Shown: piece after piece, positions 5,757 through 21,388 of the stretch
Position numbering within the stretch: position 1 is the first letter of the stretch
Layout: each line of letters starts with the position of its first letter
From: Solirubrobacterales bacterium
Lineage (GTDB): Bacteria; Actinomycetota; Thermoleophilia; Solirubrobacterales; Solirubrobacteraceae
Direction of reading: 5' to 3'
DNA length: 22,320 nucleotides
Assembly: GCA_003157595.1 (NCBI GenBank)
Contig: PMKB01000300.1
Span: forward strand, 7,198 to 29,517
Translations under genes and position numbers: made by a program
The notes under the pieces: model-generated
What the model saw: only the letters and a program-made list of their open reading frames with translations
Database searches by the model: none
Told to the model about the DNA's origin: nothing

Positions 5757-6748
5757 GTGACCGGCGCCGCACCGGGCTCGCGGGTGTCGGCGTGTCCGAT
5801 CTCGCGGTTGAGCACCGCGAGCAGCTCGGCCGCAAGCGCGCCTCCGTCAGCGGCGACGCGCGGCGTGGCGCTGACTGTCACGACCATCTCGCTGCCGTCG
5901 AGCTCCTCGAGCGTGACGCTCGGATGACGGCGGACCGCCACCGTCAGGGCCTGCTCGATGCTGCGCTGCAGCTCGACCGGCGTGATTCCTGACCGCAGCC
6001 GCACGGTGAGGCTGACCGCCTCCGGTTCGCGCAGCGGACTGACCGACACGGCGAGCACGACGCTGTTGGGCACGAGTACCGGATCGTCGCCGGCGTTGAT
6101 GGTCGTGTAGAGCAGGCCGAGCGCCGACACGACACCCTCGACCCTTCCGGCGAGCGGCCCGCCCTGCAGGCGGACGCGGTCGCCCACACGAAACGGCCTC
6201 GCGCTCAGGAGCACGATTCCCGCGATCAGGTTACCGAGCGTCTGCTGCGCGGCGAGGCCGAAGACGACCGCCGAGAACGACGCACCGATCGCGATCGCCG
6301 TCAGCCCGACGCCGGCGATGGTGAGCGCCACGATGATCGCCGCCAGCATCGTGAGCAGCCGGATCACGAACCCGGCGGTGCCGGCGGTCGCCTCGTCCAT
6401 CCGCTTGAACAGGATCGGCTCCAGGCCGCGGACGAAATCGCGCGCGAGCGCCCAGCCGATGATCACGAGCGCGAGCACGACGAACACCTGCAGCGCCGCG
6501 GTGCCGGAGCGGCAGGTCGACACGCCTGTTCCCGCTGCGCACGGCTGCGTGAGCCCGAACAGATCGTCGCGGTAGTCCCACAGCAGGATCACCCCGGCGA
6601 ACAGCGGCGCGACCACCAGCAGTTGCATCCGCGCGCGCCGCACGGCCTGCGGCGAGAGCCCGAGCGCCAGCCCGAATTCACGCAGGCGCTCGCCGCGGCG
6701 CTCGGGTGTGCGCGGTGCCGGTGGCTGCTCGTCGGTCGTTTGTGACAA
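5738..6748 (-). CDS. Small-conductance mechanosensitive channel family protein (MscS type)
   Basis: A 336-residue inner-membrane channel subunit. Membrane helices are near residues 42-58 (QLLVVAPLFAGVILLW), 88-108 (LQVFVVLALVIIGWAL) and 125-190. The last contains the pore-lining segment TAIAIGASFSAVVFGLAAQQTLGNLIAGIVLL, followed by the MscS signature ARPFRVGDRVRL and the beta domain (VLVPNSVVLA). The loop between helices 1 and 2 holds two Cys (PCAAGTGVSTC), perhaps a disulfide. MscS proteins open under hypo-osmotic stress. The start is doubtful: TTG 6748 gives a sensible N-terminus but has no ribosome site; GTG 6640 and ATG 6628 are alternatives. The C-terminal codons overlap the convergent RibD-C gene. 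Confidence 0.9.
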   Translation of the reverse strand: MSQTTDEQPPAPRTPERRGERLREFGLALGLSPQAVRRARMQLLVVAPLFAGVILLWDYRDDLFGLTQPCAAGTGVSTCRSGTAALQVFVVLALVIIGWALARDFVRGLEPILFKRMDEATAGTAGFVIRLLTMLAAIIVALTIAGVGLTAIAIGASFSAVVFGLAAQQTLGNLIAGIVLLSARPFRVGDRVRLQGGPLAGRVEGVVSALGLLYTTINAGDDPVLVPNSVVLAVSVSPLREPEAVSLTVRLRSGITPVELQRSIEQALTVAVRRHPSVTLEELDGSEMVVTVSATPRVAADGGALAAELLAVLNREIGHADTREPGAAPVTQPFEM

Positions 6749-6757
6749 AGCCGTGAA
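6742..6757 (+). promoter_or_regulatory. Two-unit 11-bp direct repeat (PHO-box-like) before the CpsB-like gene
   Basis: GTGAC at 6742-6746 and GTGAA at 6753-6757 start exactly 11 bp apart. The second ends 29 bp before the TACCGT -10 element, the same geometry as at the response regulator gene. It overlaps the proposed TTG start of the divergent MscS gene. Confidence 0.45.
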
Positions 6758-14111: not shown

Positions 14112-14145
14112 GCGGCGGCGCGGGTGCGCCACCTAGCGCCGCCGC
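14112..14145. terminator. Bidirectional terminator between the transglycosylase and DUF47 genes
   Basis: GCGGCGGCGC (14112-14121) pairs perfectly with GCGCCGCCGC (14136-14145) across a 14-nt loop. It sits between two convergent genes, and the right arm lies in the last codons of the DUF47 gene. Confidence 0.5.
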
Positions 14146-14756
14146 AAGCCGATCCCCTCGAGGATGTGGGCAACCGTTTCGCACGCGTCGACGGCCGCCT
14201 CGAGCGACTCGAAGATGTCGCGCCAGCGAATCACGACCATCGGGTCGGTTCCGCCCGCGAACAGCGATGCCACAGCGTCGCGGCGCAACCGGTCTCCCTC
14301 GTTCTCCAACCGATGGATCTCGACCAGGTGCGGGGCGAGCCCATCGCCGGTGCGCAGGCACCCGAGGGCTTGCGCAACCTGCTCGGACGCGCCGACCAGC
14401 ACGTCGGCAAGCTCCACCGCCTGCTCCATCGTCGCCTCGACCGCGTAAAGGCCGAGCGTGTCGGCGACCTGCTCCGCGTGATCGACGATGTCGTCGAGCG
14501 CCGTGGCCAGCCGGTGACCGTCTGCGGCGTCGAACGGCAGCTGGGAGCGCCGCGCGTCGGCGAGTCGGTGGATCACATCGTGGGTGATGCGGTCGCCCTC
14601 GTGCTCGCACTGACGCACGTCGCGCGCCAGCGAATACCGATCGGGGTAGTCCGAGATCAGGTCCCGCAGCAGCAGCGTCGTCGCGACTACGTTGCGTCCC
14701 GACTCCGCGATGAGCTCCAGCAGGCCGTCGTCCACCGTGCGTCGCAGCAAGGCCAT
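14133..14756 (-). CDS. DUF47 family (PhoU-like) protein
   Basis: A 207-residue all-helical protein, the usual length of DUF47/YkaA proteins, which resemble PhoU and usually accompany Pit-type phosphate transporters. It carries two PhoU-type metal-binding motifs, CEHEGDRITHDV (about residue 50) and LENEGDRLRRDA (about 150). It likely modulates phosphate uptake at the membrane, but no pit gene is in the window. ATG 14756 lies 9 nt after a TACTGT -10 element (14766-14771, minus strand) and has no ribosome site, so the message may be leaderless. Four 11-bp direct repeats upstream (14799-14842) end 28 bp before this -10, so I expect phosphate-dependent control. Confidence 0.92.
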   Translation of the reverse strand: MALLRRTVDDGLLELIAESGRNVVATTLLLRDLISDYPDRYSLARDVRQCEHEGDRITHDVIHRLADARRSQLPFDAADGHRLATALDDIVDHAEQVADTLGLYAVEATMEQAVELADVLVGASEQVAQALGCLRTGDGLAPHLVEIHRLENEGDRLRRDAVASLFAGGTDPMVVIRWRDIFESLEAAVDACETVAHILEGIGLRRR

Positions 14757-14765
14757 GATCAGCGA

Positions 14766-14771
14766 ACAGTA
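14766..14771 (-). promoter_or_regulatory. -10 element of the DUF47 gene
   Basis: TACTGT on the minus strand, 9 nt from ATG 14756. It has no good -35, as expected for an activated promoter with the box array just upstream. Confidence 0.45.
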
Positions 14772-14798: not shown

Positions 14799-14842
14799 TT
14801 CACGACTTCTTCACCGCTGCATCACAGCATCTTCACCCGCTG
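14799..14842. promoter_or_regulatory. Four tandem 11-bp repeats (PHO-box-like operator)
   Basis: Four adjoining 11-bp units on the plus strand: TTCACGACTTC (14799-14809), TTCACCGCTGC (14810-14820), ATCACAGCATC (14821-14831), TTCACCCGCTG (14832-14842). The TCAC core recurs exactly every 11 bp. Tandem 11-bp units with a GTTCACC-like core are the form of PhoP-binding PHO boxes in actinobacteria. It lies between the DUF47 gene and the OmpR-type DNA-binding gene, next to phoU. Confidence 0.7.
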
Positions 14843-14872
14843 GACGCAAACGCGCGGGAGCCTGCTTCGTCG

Positions 14873-15289
14873 ATGCACGAACGGGGCGATCACGCTGAGA
14901 TGATCCGCATCGACGATATCGAGATCACGCCGGGCGAGGGCCTCGTGCGTGCGGGCGGGCAGGTGCTGACACTGTCGGTCAGAGAGTTTCAGCTGCTCGT
15001 GGCGATGGTCGAGCACGCCGGCGGAATAGTCGGTCGGGAGGAGCTTTGCCGCCTGGTGTGGGGCCGTGAGCTGCGCCCGGGCGACCGCTCGGTCGACGTC
15101 TACGTGAGCAAGCTGCGCGCGAAGCTCGAGCACGCGGTGCCGGATCGGAGCTACATCCACACCCACCCGAGCTTCGGCTACCGCTTCCAGCCGCAGCCAA
15201 GGCTGTCCTACGATCCTGACCGCGCGGAGCCGTATGCGCCCGAGATCGCAGCGGCCTGGTCGCTCGCCAACGCACGGCGTGTCGAATAA
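14873..15289 (+). CDS. Receiver-less OmpR/PhoB-type winged-helix DNA-binding protein
   Basis: A 138-residue protein that consists almost only of the OmpR-family effector domain. Visible are LTLSVREFQLLVAMVEHAGGIVGREEL, the recognition-helix region RPGDRSVDVYVSKLRAKLEHAVPD, and the wing YIHTHPSFGYRFQPQP. There is no receiver domain upstream, so phosphorylation cannot control it in the usual way. It is a close paralogue of the effector domain of the response regulator at 16128-16979. ATG 14873 is my start; ATG 14900 (MIRIDDIEI) begins exactly at the domain and is equally possible. Neither has a strong ribosome site. It lies downstream of the PHO-box-like array and 53 bp ahead of phoU, probably in one transcript with it. 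Confidence 0.88.
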   Translation: MHERGDHAEMIRIDDIEITPGEGLVRAGGQVLTLSVREFQLLVAMVEHAGGIVGREELCRLVWGRELRPGDRSVDVYVSKLRAKLEHAVPDRSYIHTHPSFGYRFQPQPRLSYDPDRAEPYAPEIAAAWSLANARRVE

Positions 15290-15342
15290 TGCGATAACCA
15301 GGCCTGCACTCGGGCCGGGGCAACTGCATGGAGGGTACTCAG

Positions 15343-16053
15343 ATGGCTTCCAGGACTTCCGTCGGCAAGGCAGGCGGCCGGTCGCGCTTCGAGGAGGAGC
15401 TGCGCGAACTGGAGCAGCGCGCGCTCGGCGGCATCGACATCGTGCTCGAGCAACTCGACCGCACGCTCGAGGCGCTCGCGCACCAGGATGTGGAGCTCGC
15501 CTCCTTTGTGATCGCCGACGACGACCGGGTCGACGGGCGCTACCTGGAGGTCCATCAGGGCATCCTCTCGCTGCTGGCGCGCCAGGCTCCGGTCGCCGGC
15601 GATCTGAGGCTCGTCGCCGCGCTGCTGCATGTGATCATGCGCGTCGAGCGGATGGGCGACCAGTGCGTGAACATCTGCAAGCAGCTGCCGCTCTCGGGCC
15701 ACGAGCCGCCGACCCAGCCCGAAATTCTGGCGCTGCTGCTGCGGATGGGCGAAATCGCGCGCTCGGAGGTCTCCCAGGCGAAGCGCTCGTTCGCGGACCG
15801 CGACGTCGGCCTGGCCGCGGACCTGGTGCGTCAGGACCGCGAGGTCAACCAGATCCAACGCGAGATCTTCCGCCTCTCGATCGAGACCGGCGAGGACATC
15901 GACACCCGCGAGTGGGCGATGCACATGACGCTCGTGGCGCGCTGCATGGAGCGCATCGGCGACAACGCCGTCGATATCGGCGAGCAGACCACGTTCGTCG
16001 TCACTGGCCTGTTTCGCGAATTTCCCGGTAATTCGCAGATCGGCGCGTCGTGA
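15343..16053 (+). CDS. phoU: Phosphate signalling complex protein PhoU
   Basis: A 236-residue two-bundle helical protein of standard PhoU length. The duplicated metal-binding signatures are RVERMGDQCVNICKQ (about residue 105) and CMERIGDNAVDIGEQTTFVVTG (about 210). PhoU links the phosphate state of the cell to the PhoR/PhoB(P) system and to transporters; the high-affinity pst genes are not in the window. I chose ATG 15343 because GGAGGG stands at a good distance before it; ATG 15328 would place that ribosome site inside the coding region. It follows the receiver-less DNA-binding gene and precedes the response regulator, which has its own promoter. Confidence 0.95.
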   Translation: MASRTSVGKAGGRSRFEEELRELEQRALGGIDIVLEQLDRTLEALAHQDVELASFVIADDDRVDGRYLEVHQGILSLLARQAPVAGDLRLVAALLHVIMRVERMGDQCVNICKQLPLSGHEPPTQPEILALLLRMGEIARSEVSQAKRSFADRDVGLAADLVRQDREVNQIQREIFRLSIETGEDIDTREWAMHMTLVARCMERIGDNAVDIGEQTTFVVTGLFREFPGNSQIGAS

Positions 16054-16063
16054 CCGATGCGCC

Positions 16064-16085
16064 GATCGTGTGAAGATCTCGTGAC
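16064..16085 (+). promoter_or_regulatory. Two-unit 11-bp repeat (PHO-box-like) before the response regulator gene
   Basis: GATCGTGTGAA (16064-16074) and GATCTCGTGAC (16075-16085) are tandem 11-bp units with GTGAA/GTGAC at the same place in each; the reverse strand reads GTCAC and TTCAC. The second unit ends 29 bp before the TAGACT -10 element. This suggests autoregulation. Confidence 0.6.
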
Positions 16086-16113: not shown

Positions 16114-16119
16114 TAGACT
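16114..16119 (+). promoter_or_regulatory. -10 element of the response regulator gene, probable leaderless transcript
   Basis: TAGACT stands 8 nt before ATG 16128. The GTG at 16122 is only 2 nt from this element, which is too close, so the ATG is preferred. Confidence 0.5.
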
Positions 16120-16127
16120 TTGTGCAG

Positions 16128-16979
16128 ATGGTGCACGCTTCCGCGGTGGAGGAAATCCTGCCGGCCGATCCGACCGGTCACGCGGGCGCTTCGTTGAGCC
16201 TGCGCATCGCCGTGCTCGACCGCGACTCCGGCTTCCTCGCGGTGCTCGGGAAGCGCCTCGAGCGGGCCGGCTGGGAGTACCGCGTGCTGGCGTCCTCAGT
16301 CGCCCCGGAGACGATCGTGCCGATGCGGCTGGGTGCGATCGTGGTCGACCTGGCGGTGATCGGGCCGACCTGCTGGGAATGGCTCGAGCGCCTCTGCGGA
16401 GCGCTGCCGGAGCTCGGCGTCGTCGTCTGCACCGGCAGCTCGACGGTCGCCCAGCGCGTGCGTGGTCTGCGGCTGGGCGCCGATGACTGGCTGACCAAGC
16501 CCTGCCATCCGGAGGAGCTGATCGCCCGCGTGGAATCGGTCGTTCGCCGCCGCCGCCGGCTCGAGGGCTCGACGGCCGTGGAGCCGATGCTCGCCGGTGA
16601 GGTGGAGATCCAGCGCGACCAGTTCCAGGCGTTCGTCGACGGCGTCAGCATCGATTTGACGCGCCGCGAATTCGAGTTGATCGAGCTGCTCGCCGCCTCA
16701 GGCGGCCGCGTGCTCGAGCGCGAGTTCATCTATCAGCGGCTGTGGGGTTACGCGATGGTCCGAGGCGACCGCTCGGTTGATGTGTTCGTGCGCAAGCTGC
16801 GACAGAAGCTCGAGCGCGTATCCCCGGACTGGCGCTACATCCACACGCATTTCGGGATCGGCTACCGCTTCGCGGCCGAATCGGCAGGACACTCGGGATC
16901 CGCCATCCCCGCCGGCGCACTCGCACCGAAGATGCTCGTGTCAGAGCCCAGCGACGAGCTCGACCTCGCGCGGGCGTAG
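16128..16979 (+). CDS. OmpR/PhoP-family response regulator
   Basis: A 283-residue DNA-binding response regulator. After about 24 residues the receiver domain begins (LRIAVLDRDSG with the acidic pair). The phospho-acceptor Asp is at about residue 74 (AIVVDLAV), and Lys124 is in LTKPCHPEEL. The OmpR effector domain covers about 160-255: DLTRREFELIELLAASGGRVLEREF, RGDRSVDVFVRKLRQKLE, YIHTHFGIGYRF. Its place next to phoU suggests a PhoP/PhoB role, but no histidine kinase gene is adjacent. The receiver is divergent in the region after the Asp (IGPTCWEWLERL). ATG 16128 is chosen over GTG 16122 on promoter spacing. A PHO-box-like repeat lies just upstream. The 3' end overlaps the convergent sixA by 39 bp. 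Confidence 0.92.
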   Translation: MVHASAVEEILPADPTGHAGASLSLRIAVLDRDSGFLAVLGKRLERAGWEYRVLASSVAPETIVPMRLGAIVVDLAVIGPTCWEWLERLCGALPELGVVVCTGSSTVAQRVRGLRLGADDWLTKPCHPEELIARVESVVRRRRRLEGSTAVEPMLAGEVEIQRDQFQAFVDGVSIDLTRREFELIELLAASGGRVLEREFIYQRLWGYAMVRGDRSVDVFVRKLRQKLERVSPDWRYIHTHFGIGYRFAAESAGHSGSAIPAGALAPKMLVSEPSDELDLARA

Positions 16980-17427: not shown

Positions 17428-18315
17428 ATGATCTGCGGCTGCATCGACATCGGCTCGAACACAACGCGGTTGCTGGTCGCCGAACCCGCCGACGGGCGCC
17501 TGCGCGAGTTGATGCGCCAGCGCGCGTTCACGCGGATCGCCAAGGGCCTGCGCCGCGACGACACGATCCCGCCGAAGAAGATCGCCGAGGTCGTCGAGGT
17601 GGTGGCGACACAGGTGCGGCTCGCACGCGAGCTCGGCACCGAGACGATCCGCGCGGTGGCGACCGCTGCGATCCGCGAGGCCTCAAACCAGCTGGAGTTC
17701 ACGCGCGCGATCGCCGAGCGAGCCGGCGTCGAGGTCGAGGTCCTCAGCGACGAGGAGGAGGCGCGGCTGGCCTTCGTCGGAGCCACCAGCGCGTTGGACC
17801 ATCCACCTGACGGCGACATCGCAGTGATCGACGTGGGCGGCTCCTCGTCGGAGATCGCGATCGGCACGATCGCCGACGGCGTGCGAGCTTCGAGCTCGTT
17901 CCGGATCGGCTCGGGCTTTCTCGCCGACGCCTACCTCCACGGCGACCCGCCCACGATCGAGCAGCTGGCGCACGTGCGCGCCCATGTCGGCGGCGTGTTC
18001 GAGGGATTCACGCTGCCGACGCCCGAGCTGGCGGTCGCCGTGGGCGGCTCCTCGACGTCGCTGCGACGGCTCGTCGGCGGTGTGCTCGACCACGAGACGC
18101 TCGAGCGCGGGCTGCGGATTCTCGCCACGACACCCAGCGACGAGGTCGCGAGAGCCTTCGAGATGGAGGCCGAGCGGGTGCGGCTGCTGCCGGGCGGCAT
18201 GCTCGTGCTCGAGGAGATCTCCGACCGGCTCGAGCGCCCGCTGCTGATCGGTCGCGGCGGACTTCGCGAGGGTGTGATCCTGGAGATGCTGATCGCGGCG
18301 GGCTGGAGCGCATGA
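17428..18315 (+). CDS. ppx: Ppx/GppA-type exopolyphosphatase
   Basis: A 295-residue ASKHA-fold phosphatase that removes terminal phosphate from polyphosphate, or hydrolyses pppGpp. Visible motifs are CIDIGSNTTRLLVAE (phosphate 1 loop), IRAVATAAIREASN, VEVLSDEEEARLAFVGA with the catalytic Glu, IDVGGSSSEIAIG (phosphate 2 loop), and AVAVGGSSTSLRRL. It lacks the C-terminal HD-like domains of the 500-residue E. coli enzyme; short forms like this are common in actinobacteria. ATG 17428 follows TATAGC by 8 nt without a ribosome site. The stop overlaps the next gene by ATGA. As first gene of the ppx-CHAD-CHAD-ppk1 operon it places degradation and synthesis of polyphosphate under one promoter. Confidence 0.94.
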   Translation: MICGCIDIGSNTTRLLVAEPADGRLRELMRQRAFTRIAKGLRRDDTIPPKKIAEVVEVVATQVRLARELGTETIRAVATAAIREASNQLEFTRAIAERAGVEVEVLSDEEEARLAFVGATSALDHPPDGDIAVIDVGGSSSEIAIGTIADGVRASSSFRIGSGFLADAYLHGDPPTIEQLAHVRAHVGGVFEGFTLPTPELAVAVGGSSTSLRRLVGGVLDHETLERGLRILATTPSDEVARAFEMEAERVRLLPGGMLVLEEISDRLERPLLIGRGGLREGVILEMLIAAGWSA

Positions 18316-18758
18316 CGCTCACGGCAGAGCAGCCGTATGCGCAGGCGGCGGCAACGGTCATCTCCGGGCGCGCCGAGGCGGTCTTTGCCTGCCGGCGCAA
18401 GGAGGTGCTCGATCTTGGCGAGATCGAGGGCGTTCACGCGATGCGCGTGGCGACGCGCCGGTTGCGCGCGGCGCTCGAGGTGTTCGGTCCGTGTCTGACG
18501 GGCAAGCACCGTGGACGCGTGCTCGCCGAGGTCAAGGCGCTCGCCGCCGCGCTGGGTGAGCGGCGCGACCGCGACGTGCAGCTCGAGCTGCTGGAGCGGC
18601 TGCAGGCGGACTGCAGGGGCAGCGAGCGCCGTGCCCTCGCCCTGCTCGTGCGCGAGCTGCGCGGCGAACAGGACGAAGCCAATCGCGATCTGGCCAAGGC
18701 GCTCGTCCACGCCAAGCGGACCGGATTGCGCCGGCGGCTCGGGAGGCTCGCAAAATGA
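18312..18758 (+). CDS. CHAD domain protein, N-terminal half
   Basis: A 148-residue helical, Arg-rich protein matching the first half of a CHAD domain, a polyphosphate-binding fold made of two similar helical bundles. It has VHAMRVATRRLRAALEVF (His42, Arg45, Arg49, Arg50) and then ALGERRDRDVQLELLERL. These are the basic-patch helix and following helix of one bundle. A complete CHAD domain holds two such sets and is roughly 200-300 residues, so this gene encodes one half only. Its ATG overlaps the ppx stop (ATGA), and its own TGA overlaps the ATG of the gene for the second half. It has no CYTH (triphosphate tunnel) domain. I infer that it works as a heterodimer with the next product. Confidence 0.85.
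   Translation: MTLTAEQPYAQAAATVISGRAEAVFACRRKEVLDLGEIEGVHAMRVATRRLRAALEVFGPCLTGKHRGRVLAEVKALAAALGERRDRDVQLELLERLQADCRGSERRALALLVRELRGEQDEANRDLAKALVHAKRTGLRRRLGRLAK
18741..18746 (+). promoter_or_regulatory. Ribosome binding site of the second CHAD gene
   Basis: GGGAGG lies 8 nt before ATG 18755, inside the end of the first CHAD gene. It supports true initiation of a separate second protein. Confidence 0.6.
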
Positions 18759-19231
18759 AGGCCCATCGCGTGGACGGGCTCGAGTCGACGATGGCGCTGG
18801 CGGATGCGGCGCGGCGGATTGTCGCCGTGCGCACCGCCGAGCTGTACGCGTTCATACCCGAGGCGCTCGGCGAAAGCGCCGTCAGCGCGATGCACGACAT
18901 GCGAATCGCCGCCAAGCGCCTGCGCTACCTGCTGGAACTTGTCGGCTTCTGCTTCGGCGCCGTCGGCGAGGAGGCGCAGGCGCGCGCACGCGCGCTTCAG
19001 GACGTGCTCGGCGAGGTCCACGATTGCGACGTGATGCTCGAGCGAATCGCGGCCAGCCGAGAGCGCGAGCCCGACGGCTTCGACGCACTCGCGGCGCGCT
19101 TCCGGGTCCGCCGGGCGGACCAGTGCGCGCGCTTTGCGACCCTGTGGAACGCGATCGAAGCGTCCGGTCTGCGTGACCGTCTGCTTGCAACAACGCTGTC
19201 TTCGCCGCAGCAGGCTCCCGCGGGCCGATAA
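18755..19231 (+). CDS. CHAD domain protein, C-terminal half
   Basis: A 158-residue protein matching the second half of a CHAD domain: AMHDMRIAAKRLRYLLELVGF (His47, Arg50, Lys54, Arg55) followed by VLGEVHDCDVMLERI. The pattern HxMRxAxxRLR, then LGExxDxDVxLE, is the same as in the previous gene, so the two products are paralogous halves of one pseudo-symmetric fold. It begins at ATG 18755, with GGGAGG 8 nt upstream and an ATGA overlap, so translation is coupled and stoichiometry should be near equal. It ends 12 bp before ppk1. The likely role is binding polyphosphate made by Ppk1 or steering Ppx and Ppk1 to it. A single fused reading by -1 slippage on AAAA at 18752-18755 is possible but less likely. 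Confidence 0.85.
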   Translation: MKAHRVDGLESTMALADAARRIVAVRTAELYAFIPEALGESAVSAMHDMRIAAKRLRYLLELVGFCFGAVGEEAQARARALQDVLGEVHDCDVMLERIAASREREPDGFDALAARFRVRRADQCARFATLWNAIEASGLRDRLLATTLSSPQQAPAGR

Positions 19232-19243
19232 TCGGATATTGCG

Positions 19244-21388
19244 ATGAGTACGACCGGCACACCACGCCTCGCCGAAGAGGGCCCCGACCCGTCCAAGCGC
19301 GGGAGCGATCGGGCGGCGCCCAAACGCCGGGACCCGGCGAACTACTTCAACCGCGAGCTCTCGTGGCTTGACTTCAACCTGCGCGTGCTCGAGCTCGCCG
19401 AAGACGCCTCTGTGCCGCTGCTCGAGCGCACGAAGTTCGCTTCGATCTACACCTCGAACCTCGACGAGTTCTTCATGGTTCGCGTTGCTGGCCTGCACGA
19501 CCAGATCGAGGCCGGCGTCGAGCGCCCGAGCGTCGACGGCCGAACGCCGTCGCAGACGCTGTCGGCGCTCCACGAGCGGGTGCTCGAGCACGGCTCGCGC
19601 CTCGCCCGCTGCGTCTCCGAGCGTCTGCTCCCTGGCTTGGCAGAGCATGGCATCGTCGTCAAGCGGGTCGCCGACCTCGGCGAGGCCGAACGCGAAGCGC
19701 TCGCCCGCCACTTTCGCCGCGTGATCTTCCCGGCGCTCACCCCGCTCGCAGTTGGTCCCGGGCAGCCCTTCCCGTACATCTCCAATCTCTCGCTGAGCCT
19801 CGGGGTGATCGCCCGCGATCCCGACAGCGGTCACACGACCTTCGCGCGCGTGAAGGTCCCCACCGAGGTCCTGCCCCGCTTCGTCGCGCTCGCCGACCGT
19901 ACGACGTTCGTGCTGCTGGAGGATGTCATCGCTCATCACCTCGCCGCTCTCTTCCCGGGGATGGAGATCGCCGACTACGACTACTTCCGCGTGACCCGCG
20001 ACGCCGACCTTGCGATCTCGGACGAGGCCGACGACCTGCTGCAGGCCGTCGAGGAGGAACTGCGCCGGCGACGGCTCGGCGAGGTCGTGCGCGTAGAGGT
20101 GGGATCGCGGATCGCCGCTCGACTGCTCGGCGAGCTGACCACTGCGCTCAACGTCTCGCCCCGCGACGTCTATCCGATTGACGGCATGCTCGACTTGACC
20201 GCCCTGCTCGAGCTGACCAAGTTGCCCGGCTACCGAGAGCTGCGCGACACGCCCTACACGCCGGTCGCGCACCCGCGTGTGGTCGCCGACGAGGAGCGTC
20301 GGGCCGACGTGATGGGCGCCATGCGCAAGGGGGATCTGCTCGTCCATCACCCTTACGACTCCTTCTCCAGCTCGGTCGAGCGATTCGTCGAGCAGGCTGT
20401 GAACGACCCGCAGGTACTGGCGATCAAGCAGACGGTGTATCGCACGAGTGACGACTCGACGCTGGTACCGGCGCTGATTCGCGCCGCCGAGCGCGGCAAG
20501 CAGGCGGTCTGCCTCGTCGAGCTGCAGGCGCGCTTTGACGAGCTGACCAACATCCACTGGGCGAAGGCGCTCGAACAGGCCGGGGTGCACGTCGTCTACG
20601 GACATCCGGCGATGAAGACGCACGCGAAGTGCGTGCTCGTCGTGCGGCGCGAAGGCGACGGCGTGCGCAATTACGTGCACATCGGCACCGGCAACTACCA
20701 CTCCGCCACCGCGCGGCTGTACACCGACTTCGGCCTCTTCACGACCGACGAGGCCATCGGCGCAGACGTCGCCGAGCTGTTCAACTACCTCACCGGCTTC
20801 GGGCGCCCGTCGGGCTACCGCAAGGTGCTCGTGGCTCCGAGCTACCTGCGAAAGGCAATCCTGGGTGAGATCGAGCAGGCCGTCGCGGCGCACTCGCCGG
20901 ACTCTCCATCCAGGATCGCGATCAAGATCAACGCCCTCGTGGACCGTGCCTGCATCGACGCGCTCTATCTCGCGTCCGGCGCCGGCGTGCGCGTGGACCT
21001 GAACGTGCGCGGCATCTGCTGCTTGCGGCCCGGGCTCAGCGGGGTCTCGGAGAACATCCGCGTCGTCTCGGTCGTCGGGCGCCTGCTCGAGCACTCACGC
21101 GTCTACTCGTTCACCTACGGCGGCACGCAGAAGGTCTACATCTCCTCCGCCGATCTGATGCCCCGTAACCTCGACAATCGTGTCGAGCTGGCGGTGCCGA
21201 TCGAGGATCCCGCGCTGCGCGCGCAGGTCATGGAAACGGTCGAGTTGTGCCTGGCCGACAACCACAACGCCTGGGACCTGGGCTCCGACGGGGTCTGGGT
21301 GCGCCGTCACCCCGGCGCGACCGAGCAGATCATCAACGCGCAGGAGATCCTGATGCGCCGCCACGCGGCGCACGCGGTCGAAGGCTAG
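19244..21388 (+). CDS. ppk1: Polyphosphate kinase 1
   Basis: A 714-residue enzyme that reversibly polymerises the gamma phosphate of ATP into polyphosphate, full length for Ppk1. Domains in order: N-terminal (NRELSWLDFNLRVLELA, IYTSNLDEFFMVRVAGL), head domain (FARVKVPTEVLPRFV), and the two phospholipase-D-like C domains. The phosphorylated His is in MKTHAKCVLVVRRE (His460), followed by YVHIGTGNYHSATARLYTDFGLFT. The second catalytic His is in LLEHSRVYSF (His617), and RGICCLRPGLSGVSENI is also kept. ATG 19244 is 12 bp after the second CHAD gene with only a weak ribosome site, so coupling to the upstream genes is likely. A strong hairpin follows the stop, ending the operon. Confidence 0.97.
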   Translation: MSTTGTPRLAEEGPDPSKRGSDRAAPKRRDPANYFNRELSWLDFNLRVLELAEDASVPLLERTKFASIYTSNLDEFFMVRVAGLHDQIEAGVERPSVDGRTPSQTLSALHERVLEHGSRLARCVSERLLPGLAEHGIVVKRVADLGEAEREALARHFRRVIFPALTPLAVGPGQPFPYISNLSLSLGVIARDPDSGHTTFARVKVPTEVLPRFVALADRTTFVLLEDVIAHHLAALFPGMEIADYDYFRVTRDADLAISDEADDLLQAVEEELRRRRLGEVVRVEVGSRIAARLLGELTTALNVSPRDVYPIDGMLDLTALLELTKLPGYRELRDTPYTPVAHPRVVADEERRADVMGAMRKGDLLVHHPYDSFSSSVERFVEQAVNDPQVLAIKQTVYRTSDDSTLVPALIRAAERGKQAVCLVELQARFDELTNIHWAKALEQAGVHVVYGHPAMKTHAKCVLVVRREGDGVRNYVHIGTGNYHSATARLYTDFGLFTTDEAIGADVAELFNYLTGFGRPSGYRKVLVAPSYLRKAILGEIEQAVAAHSPDSPSRIAIKINALVDRACIDALYLASGAGVRVDLNVRGICCLRPGLSGVSENIRVVSVVGRLLEHSRVYSFTYGGTQKVYISSADLMPRNLDNRVELAVPIEDPALRAQVMETVELCLADNHNAWDLGSDGVWVRRHPGATEQIINAQEILMRRHAAHAVEG

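Follow-up and report, generated by a model that had tools for sequence, protein, structure and literature searches.

Genes and features at the locus

The window (the whole 22,320-nucleotide stretch of DNA that was analysed) is the end of a contig in a metagenome-type assembly of a Solirubrobacterales bacterium (GCA_003157595.1; 2.95 Mb, 358 contigs, 73% complete). It carries an island of phosphate genes in which the following features were located.

14133-14756, minus strand: DUF47 / PhoU_div gene, divergent from the genes that follow (Pfam PF01865, E 1.7e-21)
14766-14771, minus strand: -10 element TACTGT of the DUF47 gene, 27 nt from the array and 9 nt before the ATG
14799-14842, plus strand: four-unit PHO-type operator array, 11-bp direct repeats with a TTCAC core, pointing to the winged-helix gene
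14858-14863, plus strand: -10 element GAGCCT of the winged-helix promoter, starting 59 nt after the array start
14873-15289, plus strand: lone OmpR/PhoB-type winged-helix protein of 138 aa (Pfam Trans_reg_C only), the first gene past the array
15328-16053, plus strand: phoU (Pfam PhoU, E 2.3e-36; NCBIfam TIGR02135 above its cut-off)
16064-16085, minus strand: two-unit PHO-type box, reversed, before the response-regulator gene
16114-16119, plus strand: -10 element TAGACT of the response-regulator gene, 28 nt from the reversed box
16128-16979, plus strand: OmpR-type response regulator with an atypical receiver (Pfam Response_reg and Trans_reg_C; ORF 16122-16979, likely start ATG at 16128)
17428-21388, plus strand: ppx, two CHAD half-genes and ppk (Pfam), the polyphosphate genes of the island

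The order of the island genes is kept in two sister genomes (L066 and L067); in a third (L065) ppx was not called. In all three, the island is followed by a small gene on the opposite strand and then by a pst cluster, the first gene of which encodes a Pfam PBP_like_2 protein in L065. The contig of the window stops short of pst. Most other relatives examined have the pst genes (pstSCAB) between the winged-helix gene and phoU. The CHAD domain is split across two adjoining genes (18312-19231) before ppk, and likewise in the three sister genomes.

The array consists of unit 1, TTCACGACTTC (14799-14809), unit 2, TTCACCGCTGC (14810-14820), unit 3, ATCACAGCATC (14821-14831), and unit 4, TTCACCCGCTG (14832-14842). 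An earlier note on this DNA had described four adjoining 11-bp units in a shared register, and both its sequence and its coordinates are exact. With up to three mismatches the four-unit pattern matches the window twice, once at the array itself (no mismatches) and once at the array's own register shifted by 11 bp (three mismatches), and it had no match in 100 dinucleotide shuffles of the window. Together with the period controls given below, these shuffles rule out a chance origin of the array. The two-unit pattern (at most one mismatch) has 6 matches in the window versus 0.41 expected, and 57 in the window's own genome versus 21 for the reversed pattern; for the three-unit pattern, the array is the only site to pass in this 73% complete genome.

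Some of the shorter matches were considered as additional Pho sites and rejected. The other exact two-unit matches of the genome (C184, C194 and C277) lie at ORFs that, by eye, include no evident pst-like gene. C277 of this genome (G000; L064) has a third-position GC below that of the window and is possibly an assembly contaminant. A two-unit box at 6736-6757 (minus strand), at the start of a mechanosensitive-channel gene, scores 18.9 bits in the window versus 7.3 bits for the best site in five relatives; none of the five has a comparable box, and the match is probably due to chance.

Conservation of the array in Solirubrobacterales

Conservation was assessed in 80 named Solirubrobacterales loci. 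They come from a profile search of a named genome collection for the winged-helix protein, of whose 372 relatives the 80 best were kept. Within the 220 bases upstream of each winged-helix gene, three units were scored against TTCAC (15 core bases). All 15 bases agree in 29 loci, 14 in 19, 13 in 18 and 12 in 9, and the remaining 5 loci score 7-11. Conservation in related genomes had been set as a test of the operator, and the units pass it: at period 11, 66 of the 80 loci have at least 13/15 core bases and 75 have at least 12/15. With periods of 8, 9, 10, 12, 13 and 14, none of the 80 loci reaches 13/15. Of six other core words, four matched no locus; CTTCA, whose letters overlap the TTCAC repeats, matched 17, and GTGAA, the reverse complement of TTCAC, matched 1. 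These 80 loci are not independent events, because they are related, overlap with other genomes of the analysis and include two array pairs identical over 115 nt (74 distinct arrays of 76).

The consensus of the arrays is TTCAC-n6-TTCAC-n6-TTCAC-n6-GTAAC. The fourth unit is GTAAC in the consensus, TTCAC in the window and TTAAC in the sister genomes.

Promoters on the two sides of the array

When the loci are aligned on the array, the only strong downstream signals are A at position +60 and T at position +64 (0.88 each). These belong to a -10-like element, nAnnnT. Of 76 arrays, that of the window among them, 66 have it at +59 from their start and 9 at +60, and 1 lacks it. Because this element keeps a fixed distance of 59 or 60 nt in 75 of the 76 arrays, we take the main promoter to face the winged-helix gene. 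The last T of the -10 element is followed by the start codon within 6-9 nt in 68 of 74 loci, and counted from the array start this codon comes at 71-74 nt in 66 of 74 (sd 1.5). Start codons were chosen as those nearest to 73 within 68-80, a rule that favours a narrow spread; the -10 result is independent of this choice. No clear ribosome-binding signal was found between the -10 element and the start codon in the aligned loci. Given this and the closeness of the -10 element to the start codon, we infer that the winged-helix mRNAs are leaderless or nearly so.

On the other side, tblastn searches with three DUF47 queries located a divergent DUF47 gene no more than 1.5 kb away at 42 of 81 loci. 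No upstream DUF47 gene was found in 35 of the 76 array-bearing loci, some of which end early at a contig end. The TACTGT element that the earlier note had placed 28 bp from the array exists, and a TAnnnT is conserved in the DUF47-bearing relatives; the gap is 27 nt. A TAnnnT occurs 4-13 nt before the chosen DUF47 start in 35 of 39 measurable loci, at a distance from the array of 27-29 nt in 25 of these 35, of 37-39 nt in 6, and of 17, 48, 71 and 104 nt once each. The groups at 17, 27-29, 37-39 and 48 nt are about one helical turn apart, and the distances of 71 and 104 nt may reflect a wrong start. Within the DUF47-side stretch, AnnnTA is present in 36 of 39 loci with DUF47 versus 5 of 35 without. 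From this difference and the TAnnnT spacing, the array probably serves two divergent promoters.

The regular DUF47 distances could also be read as those of an operator for DUF47 only. We consider this very improbable, and the spacing and distribution disfavour it: arrays occur at loci where DUF47 was not found, as counted above, and the spacing to the winged-helix gene is kept almost everywhere. The orientation of the array, its 59/60-nt spacing and its persistence at loci with no divergent DUF47 found show, at the level of sequence, that its conserved duty is as the promoter of the winged-helix gene, with DUF47 sharing it from the other side. The earlier assignment of the array to DUF47 is therefore incomplete; the GAGCCT promoter had been missed, as had the reversed box at 16064-16085.

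Further arrays at the same locus

A second array with at least 12/15 core bases lies 280-650 nt past the winged-helix start in 48 of the 74 loci with enough sequence (period controls: 0, 0, 0 and 2). When pstS-side arrays are selected by the four-unit score, 48 loci qualify, and nAnnnT is found at +59 or +60 in 41 of these. The pstS array overlaps the end of the winged-helix coding sequence in L133 (4083-4442) and in many of L146-L219, where the operator thus partly encodes the C-terminal residues.

The box before the response-regulator gene has a fixed orientation of its own. At a threshold of at least 11 bits it is reversed in 28 of 30 loci and forward in none of the 30. All 30 have just one TAnnnT in the 60 nt next to the box edge, at 28-30 nt in 5 loci and at 38-40 nt in 25, so that the two spacing classes differ by one helical turn. 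In the larger spacing groups of the DUF47 and response-regulator promoters (25 loci each), no conserved -35 element is visible.

A probable phosphate regulon in related genomes

The earlier note had proposed a genome-wide motif search, which we ran in 15 genomes of the genus and family with the pattern TTCAC-n6-TTCAC-n6-KTMAC (at most one mismatch). It gave 66 matches versus none for the reversed pattern. Merged by hand, the matches make 49 sites, some of them inside over-long called frames. Of these, 14 belong to the winged-helix gene, 20 precede phosphate genes checked by Pfam and 15 lie elsewhere. The 20 phosphate sites precede eight genes for PBP_like_2 proteins (pstS-like binding proteins), three ppk genes, two DUF47 genes followed by a PHO4 transporter (pit), two alkaline phosphatase genes, and genes for PhoX, GDPD, a metallophosphoesterase and two phosphoesterases. 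Arrays of the same matrix thus stand before pstS, phoA-type and DUF47-pit genes, as a Pho regulon would have them. The 15 other sites comprise one before a glycerophosphotransferase gene, three before a gene for a TIM-barrel protein, and 11 with no evident phosphate link or in other frames.

A distance of 26-27 nt from the last unit to the -10 element is kept at all three ppk sites, both alkaline-phosphatase sites, all three TIM-barrel sites and some of the unlinked sites. The GDPD, PhoX and glycerophosphotransferase sites, one DUF47-pit site and both phosphoesterase sites depart from it, and the other DUF47-pit site conforms only if its second unit is taken as the last.

The TIM-barrel proteins behind arrays form a xylose-isomerase-like family (L113 1965-2834, L123 2606-3550 and L130 1988-3001), found once beside phoU. 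It is a candidate new member of the Pho regulon.

Two features of a PHO box are found in these 15 genomes, i.e. 11-bp direct repeats and sites before phosphate genes, and we conclude that the array is very likely a Pho operator. The earlier note had called it so from the tandem 11-bp units, the actinobacterial TTCAC core and the phosphate island; this prediction from sequence agrees with our results. An extremely improbable alternative is a nitrogen operator of the GlnR type, whose period is 11 bp too. The top structural matches of the wing domain include 8hig and 8hml, listed as 'DNA-binding response OmpR family regulator', which we take to be mycobacterial GlnR. The GTAAC of the fourth unit also resembles the a-site GTnAC of GlnR boxes (PMC10704036, excerpt). 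However, units 1-3 are TTCAC rather than GTnAC or GaAAC, the gTnAc-n6-GaAAc alternation of GlnR is absent with these and a GTAAC fourth unit, and phosphate genes follow 20 of the 35 sites that lie away from the winged-helix locus.

Two regulators with one recognition helix

The lone winged-helix protein and the response regulator have in common the recognition-helix string RSVDV-(F/Y)-V-x-KLR-x-K. Orthologues of the former are 55-70% identical over the aligned part. Neither protein reaches the cut-off of the PhoB equivalog TIGR02154 (296.2 bits), with 96.8 bits for the response regulator and 56.7 bits for the lone winged-helix protein. In a 296-genome sample of the phylum, the winged-helix profile finds two proteins each in G000, G010 and G015, namely the lone protein and the response regulator encoded at its locus. 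That one profile matches both suggests that the lone protein descends by duplication from the response regulator.

The receiver of the response regulator has D76, T104 and K126 invariant in 18 aligned sequences. At the second acidic position of the pocket, D10 in PhoB, all 18 carry R, T, S or A, and thus the full acidic pocket is absent. Among the matches listed of 329 HATPase_c domains in seven genomes, no sensor kinase lies within 30 kb of the winged-helix gene, and the neighbourhoods of three distant kinases, inspected by eye, include no clear PhoR.

An atypical receiver and the lack of a nearby kinase among those matches would fit a canonical PhoP-PhoR pair that is encoded elsewhere and binds the array, the local regulator having another role. 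Most of 101 genomes searched have 5-26 OmpR-type domain matches each, which would leave room for such a pair. We regard this as unlikely, since in relatives the gene of the local regulator accompanies pst-phoU and is itself preceded by a conserved, reversed PHO-type box.

A second alternative is that the main binder is the lone winged-helix protein rather than the response regulator, acting as an autoregulated, phosphorylation-free factor. The most conserved duty of the array is indeed this gene's own promoter, the recognition helix is kept, and the invariant W63 and D71 align with W184 and D192 of PhoB, residues tied to polymerase contact (PMC3348028, excerpt). Against this, the response regulator is present in 58 of 61 relatives at E 1e-60, a lone-type match (about 170 bits) occurs in only 4 of the 296 sampled phylum genomes, all of the window's family, and three-unit arrays also stand before other phosphate genes. 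This alternative therefore seems to us unlikely.

Proposed mechanism

The reading that we favour, and hold to be highly probable as a whole, is that the array is a PHO-box array of a Solirubrobacterales Pho regulon, bound by its regulator under phosphate limitation and acting on the promoters of both sides. When phosphate is scarce, the island's response regulator (16128-16979) would occupy the four units head to tail, a protomer on each, and might be joined on the array by the lone winged-helix protein (14873-15289). The bound array would recruit RNA polymerase to the promoter with the -10 element GAGCCT (14858-14863), which would drive the winged-helix, phoU and regulator genes. The same bound array would act backwards on DUF47, by activation or repression, with the -10 element 27 nt from its other edge. 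What the sequences show are the repeats, their conservation, the two promoter spacings and the phosphate genes behind such arrays in relatives; the identity of the binder, activation rather than repression and phosphate as the signal are proposed.

A bolder version of this mechanism, which we offer tentatively and as more doubtful than the mechanism itself, is that of a split regulator. The receiverless winged-helix protein, whose gene heads the Pho operon and would be under tight control by its own product, would share the 11-bp sites with the pocket-deficient response regulator. The readout of phosphate would then be the proportion between the two binders (together with PhoU), with no linked PhoR kinase, and box orientation would set the sign or strength of each promoter. 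A search of the literature, judged by titles and the starts of abstracts, found no paper on a receiverless Pho regulator; it found no usable paper on repression from reversed boxes and, among the matches listed, no description of a Pho box in Solirubrobacterales or Thermoleophilia.

The conserved layout amounts to a grammar for Pho promoters, i.e. TTCAC-n6-TTCAC-n6-TTCAC-n6-GTAAC, 21-22 nt, nAnnnT and the start codon, that can be used to map phosphate regulons in many uncultured genomes of the order. The lone winged-helix protein and the kinase-less neighbourhood make a testable departure from the textbook scheme of PhoR and PhoB.

Comparison with known systems

PHO boxes are 11-bp direct repeats with a GTTCACC core in Streptomyces, where two units suffice and the boxes stand before pstS, phosphatase and other phosphate genes (PMC4415409 and PMC6988585, excerpts). 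The Streptomyces PhoP operator, as far as these excerpts describe it, is like the present array in having 11-bp direct-repeat units before phosphate genes. Unlike it, the array here has four units, ends in GTAAC in the consensus, keeps a rigid 59/60 nt to the -10 element and precedes an operon whose first gene encodes a receiverless regulator. The pstS boxes of S. lividans are at -141 to -113 in the numbering of PMC2605767 (excerpt), the reference point of which may not be the start codon.

The E. coli PhoB operator likewise has 11-bp direct repeats upstream of the -10 element and of phosphate genes, and the wing domains align with that of PhoB. The spacing is different: from the TCAC of the last unit to the -10 element there are 25 nt here versus 14 nt at pstS and phoA of E. 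coli MG1655 (with the E. coli -10 elements assigned in this analysis). Relative to E. coli, the last unit here is thus shifted upstream by a single 11-bp step.

PhoP of M. tuberculosis is bound as a tandem dimer to 7-bp TCACAGC direct repeats with a 4-bp spacer (PMC4832192, excerpt). Its site has the same 11-bp period as the array, with two units in the structure rather than four. In an alignment by eye, its base-contacting residues Asn212, Tyr217 and Tyr220, as given in that excerpt, are unmatched in the RSVDV helix. GlnR occupies four 11-bp sites head to tail with four protomers, and its atypical receiver is unphosphorylated at the usual Asp (PMC10704036, excerpt). Its four-site promoter, so described, resembles the present locus in the four 11-bp units and the atypical receiver, and differs from it in core sequence and target genes. 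What sets the array apart from the known Pho systems is its shared, two-sided and rigidly spaced layout, together with a lone DNA-binding domain at the head of the operon.
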